Source of the DNA: a virus
Length of the DNA: 36,343 nt
IMG/VR virus record: IMGVR_UViG_3300020383_000016
Location: 1 to 36,343 of that record
Strand: one strand, 5' to 3'
Shown here: piece after piece, positions 3,080-15,615 of the stretch
Layout: every line of letters starts with the position of its first letter
Position numbering within the stretch: position 1 is the stretch's first letter
The notes under the pieces: model-generated
The model's input: the letters and a program-made list of their open reading frames with translations, nothing else
The model's database searches: none
What the model was told of the DNA's origin: nothing
Translations under genes and position numbers: made by a program

Positions 3080-3711
3080 GAAGGCACGTCCGTTTTGCTA
3101 TTGCCGGCGACCACGCCGCCGTGCTTGTGGGTCTTGCCGATATCCTTGCCGTCGTGATCGACGCCGCTGCCTACCAGGTGCACGCCGCTGGCATCGATGC
3201 GCAGGCCGTTGCTGCCGTGCATCAGCGTGATGCCGTCACGGTCGGCGGTCATCGTGCTGCTACCGATCGCGCGCTCGAAGCGATGCGCGGCGTGGTCATA
3301 GCTCTCGGTGGTGCCGTCCTTGAACGTGCGGCGCCATACGTTGCCCTCGCCCGAGACCGGCGGGAACGCCGCCGAAGGCAGGCCGGTGAGCGCCATGGCC
3401 TGCGCGCTGCCGTCGCCGGCGCCGTAGTTGAGCAGCAGGCACTGCTCGCCCACCGAGGGGTGCCGCGTCTCTCGGGTCTCGCCGGCGGCGGGGTTGAAAT
3501 ACTTGATCCAGGGCGAGCGGTTGCCGCCGTGGCTGACCTGGCAGCGCCCGCTCGCCGGGTCCACCGCCACGCAGGTGCCGATGCGGTTCAGGTTGGCCGC
3601 CCGGCGGTGCAGGTCCTCGACCTCGTCGCGCAGCGTGGCGATCTCGTCGGCATACGGGGCCAGCGCGGCGCGAATCATTCGGCTGATCAGCTCGCGCATG
3701 GGGCTCGTCAC
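3076..3711 (-). CDS. V: Baseplate spike protein V (P2 gpV-like)
   Basis: 211 residues. This is the membrane-piercing central spike of contractile tails. The N-terminal 40 residues are helical, followed by an OB-fold part (CVAVDPASGRCQVSHGGNRS, then HPSVGEQCLLLNYGAGDG) and a C-terminal beta-helix with THKHGG near residues 194-199. The HxH in this position is the known iron-binding tip motif of P2 and phi92 spikes. The start may be Met1 or Met5 (3699). It overlaps the following W gene by four bases (ATGA) and the preceding tail-completion gene by four. Confidence 0.9.
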   Translation of the reverse strand: MTSPMRELISRMIRAALAPYADEIATLRDEVEDLHRRAANLNRIGTCVAVDPASGRCQVSHGGNRSPWIKYFNPAAGETRETRHPSVGEQCLLLNYGAGDGSAQAMALTGLPSAAFPPVSGEGNVWRRTFKDGTTESYDHAAHRFERAIGSSTMTADRDGITLMHGSNGLRIDASGVHLVGSGVDHDGKDIGKTHKHGGVVAGNSKTDVPS

Positions 3712-14227: not shown

Positions 14228-14545
14228 TCACCGCCTTGTGCCGCGCAGCCACCCTGCGACCGCGCCCTCGATGCTCATAAAGCCGCCTGTCACATGCGAG
14301 CACGCCGAGCAGGCCACAAACCACTTGCCCTCGCGCTGCTTGAACCGAGGCGCGCCCTCGCCACAGGTATGACGGGGCAGACTGGGGTCGTTGGCACGCT
14401 CCCAGGTCGCACGGGCATAGTTCTCGGCCTCGCCAATCGTTGCGACGCCGCGATGATTGCAGACCGGGCAAATGAACATGACGCGCCCACTAGCCGAGTC
14501 CTCGCGGCGCTCGGGGGCGCTGTCGCAGTGGCGGCAGGAAATCAT
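14228..14545 (-). CDS. Zinc-ribbon protein, Lar-like
   Basis: 105 residues with two Cys pairs typical of zinc ribbons: MISCRHCDSAP at the start paired with FICPVCNHRG near 25-30, and a third pair VACSACSHVTG near residues 77-84. The arrangement is like the Lar (restriction-alleviation) family found in many phages and prophages, where the small zinc protein modifies host restriction-modification. The neighbour is a cytosine methyltransferase locus, which fits an anti-restriction role, but the similarity is only to motif layout. Its ATG overlaps the stop of the 274-residue frame upstream (ATGA). Confidence 0.55.
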   Translation of the reverse strand: MISCRHCDSAPERREDSASGRVMFICPVCNHRGVATIGEAENYARATWERANDPSLPRHTCGEGAPRFKQREGKWFVACSACSHVTGGFMSIEGAVAGWLRGTRR

Positions 14546-15366
14546 GCCGCATTACTCCCGGCCTGATAGCAACTCGAATGCTGTCGCTGCCACTCGTGAA
14601 ACCTGGCCATTGCCAAGGGCCTTAAGTCGGTCCACCCTTCCGGCCAACCCATCAGCCACTCGACCCATGTCGGGTTCAGCGGGCCACCGTCCGAAGCCAT
14701 CACTGCATGATCGAGGCGGTCGTTCGACCGATCCTCGCCACTCTTGCGGGTCAGGCTGGCCGGGCTGCTTCCCTTGCTCATTGAGGCAACCGGCGTCGGC
14801 CATTTCTTTACGGCTGTCGCCAACCCGTCGCCACTCTTGCTGCTCACTCCCTTGCGGTTGTGGTTCCCGCACACGGTAGGCGTCGGCCACAATCCAGATT
14901 CGCTTTCGCCGGTGCGGGGCGCCCAAGTCATCTGCTCCCAGCACTCCCCACTCCGCATCGAACCCCAGCTCGGCCAAGTCTCCGAGAACTCTTCCGAGCC
15001 CGCGAGAAGTGAGAGCTGGGCTGTTTTCCACGAAGACGAAGCGGGGTCGTACTTCGCCAATGATCCGTCGCATCTCGCCCCACAAGCCGGATCGCTCGCC
15101 ATCGAGGCCGGCGCCTCCGCCAGCAACGGATATGTCCTGACACGGGAATCCGCCCGAAACCACGTCAACAAGGCCTCGCCAAGGTCGGCCGGAAAATGTG
15201 CGAACGTCATCCCATATCGGGAAGGGCGGGAGAATGCCGTCATTCTGTCGGGCGGCAAGAACGCTTGCGGCGTAGGGGTCGAACTCGACAGCGCAGACCG
15301 TGCGCCATCCGAGGAGGTGGCCGCCGAGAATTCCGCCACCAGCGCCTGCGAAAAGAGCCAGCTCAT
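14542..15366 (-). CDS. Second full-length frame overlapping the methyltransferase gene
   Basis: 274 residues in a different frame of the same strand as the cytosine methyltransferase. It begins MSWLFSQALVAEFSAATSSD, then SALSSSTPTPQAFLPPDRMT, SLAKYDPASSSWKTAQLSLL, WPSWGSMRSGECWE, LWPTPTVCGNH and finally LNPTWVEWLMGWPEGWTDL. From memory these blocks recur in a phage protein family found near C5-methyltransferase genes. Operon context supports it: the upstream gene ends TGA directly before this ATG (TGAATG), and its own stop overlaps the next start (ATGA at 14542-14545), whereas the methyltransferase frame stops 10 bp earlier. No known domain; function unknown, perhaps methyltransferase-related. 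Confidence 0.7.
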   Translation of the reverse strand: MSWLFSQALVAEFSAATSSDGARSALSSSTPTPQAFLPPDRMTAFSRPSRYGMTFAHFPADLGEALLTWFRADSRVRTYPLLAEAPASMASDPACGARCDGSLAKYDPASSSWKTAQLSLLAGSEEFSETWPSWGSMRSGECWEQMTWAPRTGESESGLWPTPTVCGNHNRKGVSSKSGDGLATAVKKWPTPVASMSKGSSPASLTRKSGEDRSNDRLDHAVMASDGGPLNPTWVEWLMGWPEGWTDLRPLAMARFHEWQRQHSSCYQAGSNAA

Positions 15367-15370
15367 TCAA
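14552..15370 (-). CDS. DNA cytosine-5 methyltransferase
   Basis: 272 residues from a TTG at 15370, preceded by AAGGGGG. It has the C5-methyltransferase motifs: I LFAGAGGGILGG (about residues 6-17, S-adenosylmethionine), IV GGFPCQDIS with catalytic Cys77, VI FVFVENSP (Glu115), VIII APHRRKRIWIVA (about 151-162) and X KALGNGQVSR near the end. The target-recognition region between motifs VIII and X is short. The frame is open upstream to an ATG at 15529, but that part is covered by the 82-residue gene, so the TTG is preferred. Probably protects phage DNA from host restriction. Its entire length is overlapped by another same-strand frame starting 4 nt later. Confidence 0.88.
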   Translation of the reverse strand: MNELALFAGAGGGILGGHLLGWRTVCAVEFDPYAASVLAARQNDGILPPFPIWDDVRTFSGRPWRGLVDVVSGGFPCQDISVAGGGAGLDGERSGLWGEMRRIIGEVRPRFVFVENSPALTSRGLGRVLGDLAELGFDAEWGVLGADDLGAPHRRKRIWIVADAYRVREPQPQGSEQQEWRRVGDSRKEMADAGCLNEQGKQPGQPDPQEWRGSVERPPRSCSDGFGRWPAEPDMGRVADGLAGRVDRLKALGNGQVSRVAATAFELLSGRE

Positions 15371-15615
15371 GACAACCCCCTTTCGGCTTCTGGGATCATC
15401 ACCCTGCCTGCACGGTGGTCGTGCCAGCCAGCGGCGAACCAGCTTTCTCCACAAGACCTGATGCCAATCTCGGCTAGCGGCTCGCCCTCGTGACTTGAAT
15501 GTGCGCCCAGCGAATATTGCCTGGCGCACTCCGGTGAAATGGCATAGCGAGCCGCGATGTTATAGATCAAATCCAACTTCTCCGGCTCTGGCCGAAGGGC
15601 CTCGCGCGCGGTCAT
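15367..15615 (-). CDS. Hypothetical protein upstream of the methyltransferase
   Basis: 82 residues from ATG at 15615, which overlaps the stop of the 42-residue membrane protein (ATGA). It contains REALRPEPEKLDLIYNIAAR, then ARQYSLGAHSSHEGEPLAEI and CGESWFAAGWHDHRAGRVMI. No domain recognised. Its TGA is followed at once by the ATG of the 274-residue frame, so translation of that frame is probably coupled to it. Confidence 0.65.
   Translation of the reverse strand: MTAREALRPEPEKLDLIYNIAARYAISPECARQYSLGAHSSHEGEPLAEIGIRSCGESWFAAGWHDHRAGRVMIPEAERGLS

Follow-up and report, generated by a model that had tools for sequence, protein, structure and literature searches.

The BsuMI modification methylase is made of two subunits, YdiO and YdiP, and is part of a restriction-modification system. 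In the case of M.EcoHK31I, the small chain is said to lie in another frame inside the large-chain gene, and both chains are reportedly required for activity. PMC3404938 describes M.EcoHK31I (YGGCCR) as a two-polypeptide C5-methyltransferase (Lee, Kam and Shaw 1995, as cited there) whose large chain carries motifs I-VIII and X and is assigned the recognition domain, and whose small chain carries motif IX alone. In M.AquI (CYCGRG), according to the same paper, motifs I-VIII are on alpha and the distal variable region together with motifs IX-X is on beta. Two phage-related cases come from other sources: ShiLan, an out-of-frame HNH insertion in mycobacteriophage methylases (PMC11855218), and M.BatI, a characterised orphan C5-methyltransferase encoded by a prophage; this enzyme is small, its recognition domain is short and its toxicity in E. 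coli is independent of methylation (PMC8936443).

The window analysed here is a viral record of 36,343 bases that, by its gene content, belongs to a lambda-like temperate phage, with a Q-like antiterminator, a CII-like activator and a repressor on one flank and endolysin, terminase and capsid genes on the other. The genes nearest to the locus of interest are the Q-like gene, an unknown ORF, the Lar-like gene and the lysis genes, not all ORFs of the window having been annotated. At this locus, frame A runs from a TTG at 15370 to 14552 and frame B from an ATG at 15366 to a TGA at 14542 (Table 1). The TGA within TTGAATG is the stop of the upstream ORF (15699-15367), and the B stop shares an ATGA with the gene that follows (14545-14228). 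A could also be opened further upstream by an ORF finder, at a GTG at 15529; the TTG is favoured by relatives. The third frame contains 13 stops. The gene directly 3′ of B, on the same strand, encodes a Lar-like restriction alleviation protein (PHROG 6795, 4.6e-9), so that methylase and anti-restriction gene form one coupled row.

Table 1. Features of the overlapping A/B locus; positions are those of the window.
Feature	Position	Strand	Remarks
Frame A (alpha)	14552..15370	-	C5-cytosine methyltransferase chain, 272 aa, TTG start; PF00145 3.5e-30; PHROG 363 2.5e-69
Frame B (beta)	14542..15366	-	274 aa, +1 relative to A; core and motif IX; predicted target-recognition/motif IX subunit; PHROG 1008 8e-27
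Shine-Dalgarno-like AAAGGGGG	15376..15383	-	a few nt 5′ of the A start, 4 nt more to the B start; duplex energy -9.8
Start cluster TTGAATG	15364..15370	-	upstream stop TGA, A start TTG and B start ATG inside 7 nt
A motif I (ALFAGAGGGILG)	15323..15358	-	AdoMet binding
A motif IV (GGFPCQDIS)	15128..15154	-	catalytic Cys; P76, C77 and Q78 invariant
A motif VI (ENSP)	15017..15028	-	E115 and N116 invariant
A motif VIII (HRRKRIWIVA)	14885..14914	-	
A linker VIII-X	14642..14881	-	variable, predicted disordered; overprinted by B variable region and motif IX
A motif X (RLKALGNGQVSRVAATAF)	14576..14629	-	N254, G255, Q256 and V257 invariant
B core (SLAKYDPASSSWKTAQLSLL ... WPTP blocks)	14704..15063	-	homologous to PHROG 1008
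B variable region with WPTP repeats	14686..14892	-	presumed target-recognition region; inferred from its place before motif IX, substitutions and A disorder
B motif IX (GPLNPTWVEWLMGWPEGWTDL)	14623..14685	-	near-invariant; precedes motif X in one chain in relatives; terminal in fused form

Frame A contains the motifs expected of the PF00145 family, since I, IV (PCQ), VI (EN), VIII and X all lie in this frame. The initial annotation had reported these five motifs, as well as starts 4 nt apart, the TGAATG junction and the ATGA overlap with the next gene; coordinates and junctions are as it described, and the motifs are borne out by the profile match and the invariant residues. However, A departs from the PF00145 arrangement in which motif IX and the target-recognition domain are on the same chain. 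The A chain contains nothing resembling a motif IX; it sits in B. The AlphaFold model of A is confident over residues 1-163 and the motif X helix and disordered over 174-249 (pLDDT < 50), and it contains no folded target-recognition domain; its best Foldseek matches are M.HhaI and M.HaeIII. By family and predicted fold, A is a C5-cytosine methyltransferase, cytosine C5 methylation itself being inferred in the absence of any assay.

The B chain matched no family in Pfam or NCBIfam, and comparison of its family with PDB and Pfam gave chance-level matches only. The blocks that the initial annotation linked to a phage family near cytosine methyltransferases could be traced to PHROG 1008, the family of B, which stands beside PHROG 363, the family of A; both are catalogue entries only. 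The most conserved block of B, GGxLNPxWVEWLMGWPxGWTDL, fits the motif IX pattern (compare RKITPREASRLQGFPSDF of a single-chain enzyme), and this sequence likeness, taken together with the relatives and the fusion described below, gives good support for naming the partner protein as the carrier of motif IX. On the other hand, the AlphaFold model of B alone is poor (pLDDT 57, pTM 0.27) and found no match in the PDB by Foldseek, so that the fold of B as a recognition domain remains unproven. A poor lone model might be expected for an obligate subunit, and a shallow alignment would give the same outcome.

Where motifs IX and X are encoded varies among relatives. In a partly redundant set of classified loci, about 228 are arranged as in the window; IX and X are both in B in 46 loci, and IX is in A in another 23. 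In two of the loci in which A closes after motif VIII (L039 and L078), the B chain runs from the IX block into a motif X that the A profile picks up (E 9e-11 and 4e-10); a search for further loci of the L039 type gave one match only. Similarly, in Catdawg, gp6 supplies motifs I-VIII and gp5 reads RVNPAFAEWMMGWPDGWVTG...IIGNGVCPQQ. The B chain of L078 (2983-4497, Paraburkholderia), of around 500 aa, has several WPTP-type repeats, which suggests tandem recognition modules. The opposite arrangement is found in Rhodococcus phage ReT1v-1 and some twenty more loci, where frame A encodes the IX block and usually motif X as well; the C-terminus of the ReT1v-1 A chain is matched by the C-terminal portion of PHROG 1008. 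All 23 loci in which frame A encodes IX still keep the B core, and therefore B must do more than supply motif IX.

A natural fusion of the two chains is present on Vibrio and Alteromonas plasmids, as one non-overlapping chain with the order I-VIII, X and a B-like tail ending in GGLHPEFCEVFMGYPAGWTEL. Profile matches link the N-terminal part to A (99.8%, E 1.5e-27) and the tail to B (94.4%, E 8.8e-8), and the +1 frame is full of stops. The significant match to B is short, comprising motif IX and a weak upstream block, and no fused form was found in the viral collection. These plasmid proteins make up a conserved family of single-chain cytosine methyltransferases of about 414 aa with a permuted order: I-VIII, X, B-like region, IX.

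The reading that we favour, with a probability of roughly 0.84, is that a single C5-methyltransferase is built from A as its catalytic subunit and B as its recognition/motif IX subunit, with adjacent starts, the translation of both chains and the activity being inferred. A would fold as the large catalytic domain, with AdoMet binding, PCQ, ENS, motif VIII and motif X, and without motif IX or a folded recognition domain. B, encoded by these same bases with a shift of one nucleotide, would provide motif IX and, only probably, the target-recognition region. A single ribosome site would serve both starts, which lie 4 nt apart, and the two products would come together in one enzyme that methylates phage or host DNA. 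In its simplest role, this enzyme may be the orphan, restriction-protecting methylase of a temperate phage. There are no expression, proteomic or activity data behind the two-subunit reading; dual coding, selection, motif distribution, variants and fusion are documented at the level of sequence, whereas heteromer assembly, B as specificity subunit and a protective or regulatory role are inferences. By analogy, M.EcoHK31I is a functional precedent for motif IX alone on a small subunit (PMC3404938).

Could B be a separate protein overprinted on the gene, for instance a regulator or an anti-defence factor, translated together with A without being part of the methyltransferase? The N-terminal ~95 residues of B have no equivalent in fused or split relatives, including the plasmid fusion and Catdawg gp5, and a separate function for them is possible; in addition, B has no recognised domain and a Lar-like anti-restriction gene directly follows it. 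We nevertheless consider this unlikely: B has precisely the motif missing from A, motif IX moves between chains with motif X in relatives, a B-like tail is fused to A on the Vibrio plasmids and the recognition region of A is disordered.

In the start region of the family, A and B begin 4 nt apart in 139 of the 146 loci with both ends defined. The Shine-Dalgarno-like sequence has a median duplex energy of -7.1 in the family, compared with -2.5 in the control, and its commonest spacing is 5–6 nt to the A start, which means 9–10 nt to the B start. Codon 2 of A is AAT in 169 loci and AAC in a single one, whereas AAT represents 37% of the Asn codons elsewhere in A. Codon 3 is GAG in 175 loci and GAA in 13, while elsewhere in A only 37% of the Glu codons are GAG and most are GAA. 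This bias preserves the Met-Ser start of B and, judging from codon choice, B's own ATG is under selection. No xTG is available to A at the start point in around 25 of 194 loci, most of which retain the B ATG.

The same region bears on programmed ribosomal frameshifting, by which one chain (I-VIII from A, followed by the B core and motif IX) would be made instead of two proteins from separate starts. In the 46 loci whose A frame ends after VIII, leaving IX and X to B, a single +1 shift would indeed restore a canonical chain. However, the class of the window would need two shifts because motif X is back in frame A, and a downstream product without its own start, as programmed frameshifting implies, is not what is found, B having its own selected ATG and Ser2 and being open and conserved from that ATG. 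Furthermore, a TGA directly precedes the ATG of B, as TGAATG, in 154 of 194 loci. Hence, we regard frameshifting as very improbable, even more so than an independent B.

Since many antisense frames of this GC-rich window are open, the openness of B by itself does not suffice as a proof of coding. The number of stops expected in B was obtained by synonymous codon shuffling of A, keeping the A protein. Shuffles of the window locus gave a mean of 3.8 stops in B, which stayed open in 0.7% of them. Since fetching loci by B patterns introduces an ascertainment bias, 80 loci were fetched by A-only patterns: all 80 encode a B relative, B is open in 79 and one stop was seen where 372 were expected. The corresponding figures for 143 B-selected loci are 27 and 586, and four single-chain methyltransferases have 27–28 stops in the +1 frame.

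Selection was assessed in disjoint pairs of close relatives (90–98.5% identity), with flanking genes as controls. Differences at A codon positions 1, 2 and 3 amount to 38, 19 and 43% in the overlap and to 26, 20 and 54% in the control genes. Differences silent in A that change B occur at 0.25–0.44 of the doubly silent rate (0.81–0.96 in controls) and those that change A and are silent in B at 0.22–0.31. Control genes diverge more than the overlap, and for this reason patterns and not rates were compared; doubly silent sites are few and near saturation, which makes the absolute ratios rough. The pattern is A-dominant over motifs I-VIII and X and B-dominant over the linker and opposite motif IX. 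In A motifs I-VI, 50–74% of the differences fall on the third position of A, whereas in the linker VIII-X and the stretch opposite LNPxWVEWLMGWP of B the first position of A, which is the third of B, is the most variable and the A-silent, B-changing differences are the rarer class. These substitution classes indicate that purifying selection acts on both frames, and B is confirmed, on sequence evidence, as a real, conserved protein-coding frame. That B is merely a non-coding shadow of A's conserved protein and GC-rich codon use, for which the open antisense frames and the generally lower identity of B might speak, is refuted by the shuffles, by substitution ruled by B over a third of the gene, by the AAT/GAG bias at its start and by B-like sequence in non-overlapping DNA.

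The pair probably goes back to a single-chain enzyme in which a frameshift after motif VIII separated two halves, each then extending over the other. Such a history predicts the observed succession along the gene, where A rules, then B, then A again, although the order of events is not based on a tree.

The initial annotation held that B was not a GC-rich shadow and named what would refute it: no independent homologues of the 274-residue frame, no purifying selection or stops in close relatives. None of these applies. Stops in B are almost never seen, the fusion provides B homology outside the overlap, and relatives of B are present in 144 phage records and 106 genome loci as well as in hundreds of viral contigs, with a register to A that is nearly always that of the window. 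Phages or prophages with this register are those of Pseudomonas, Halomonas, Acinetobacter, Burkholderia, Desulfobacterota, Acidobacteriota, Verrucomicrobiota, Planctomycetota, Nitrospirota, Paenibacillus, Lacticaseibacillus, mycobacteriophages and cyanophages; on plasmids, it is found in Leptospira, Bacteroides and the archaeon Methanomethylovorans. Host assignments of MAGs may include contaminating viral contigs. As far as can be judged from these records, the geometry is a widespread conserved class, present in hundreds of phages and prophages of many bacterial phyla. Thus, the overlap proposed initially stands; beyond that proposal, motif IX allows the partner, left unknown there, to be named, and the geometry is common and not a peculiarity of one phage.

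Some loci are interrupted or rare. DNA-level relatives are found in only 4 of 5426 E. coli genomes. The one of these that was read, in the prophage of E. coli PCP07014, carries a pseudogene annotation and an internal stop at ~3363-3369 of the locus, and B is interrupted within a few bases of there. In Mycobacterium phage OfUltron and its relatives, a frameshift divides A into two genes (75 and 76), each called DNA methylase, and the B frame is broken near the split point of A. In a Gallionella MAG, an indel at 3200-3320 of the locus swaps the frames, so that a chain begun as the N-terminal part of B continues as the C-terminal part of A, through sequencing error or decay.

Why is half of a common phage enzyme missing from many records? 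Pipelines retain one of the two frames. Annotators disagree on which one: ABMM1 and S9-5 list A, and phPA-G lists only B, as a hypothetical protein. Both nested ORFs are annotated in Paenibacillus phage Tadhana and Escherichia phage fKuEco01; the label 'Mte8-like' on the nested ORF traces to one paper that gives only the name. A studied alone might look inactive or mis-specific. The two-subunit reading would also give a function to PHROG 1008, annotated only as 'DNA methyltransferase'. We give somewhat better than even chances to a broader proposal, namely that these loci constitute a phylum-spanning class of split methyltransferases whose subunits come from the same ~800 bp, with IX and X switching frames between lineages and the halves of an ancestral enzyme having slid over each other, catalytic in frame 0 and recognition in +1. 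If true, the pair would rank with the longest overlapping genes known on one strand and with the most widely conserved, a recognition subunit being encoded atop a catalytic one. In this class, nature has replicated full-length dual coding hundreds of times, and a function can be identified for both frames; with the un-overlapped fusions as natural controls, the origin and persistence of long overlaps become directly testable.

Compared with M.EcoHK31I, the window has the same division, with I-VIII and X on one chain and IX on the other. Its beta lies in a different frame within alpha, as reportedly in M.EcoHK31I. The recognition domain of M.EcoHK31I is assigned to the large chain, whereas in the window the A region is disordered and B-dominant, which points to beta; there are no specificity data. 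Moreover, the frames of the window overlap end to end from adjacent starts, and the gene is apparently an orphan in phages. Three small enterobacterial plasmids with dcm genes were considered as M.EcoHK31I-type relatives and rejected, since they carry long single-chain enzymes. The M.AquI layout, with motif X on beta, is not that of the window, where X is in A, but it is that of the 46 relatives with IX and X in B; Catdawg gp6/gp5, L039, L078, L352-L357 and the L367 group are of this kind. BsuMI YdiO/YdiP resembles the window in being a two-subunit methylase but belongs to a restriction-modification system; a match in Paenibacillus phage HB10c2 is annotated YdiP. ShiLan also hides a second frame in a phage methylase gene, but there it is a local homing-endonuclease insertion and here an end-to-end overlap with what appears to be the enzyme's own missing part. 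We found no description of this overlap class, its selection or the motif swap in the open-access literature, bioRxiv and most subscription papers being outside the search. In summary, split C5-methyltransferases and some doubly annotated nested ORFs were already known, and what is new is the end-to-end overlap, its wide spread and the swapping of motifs IX and X between frames.
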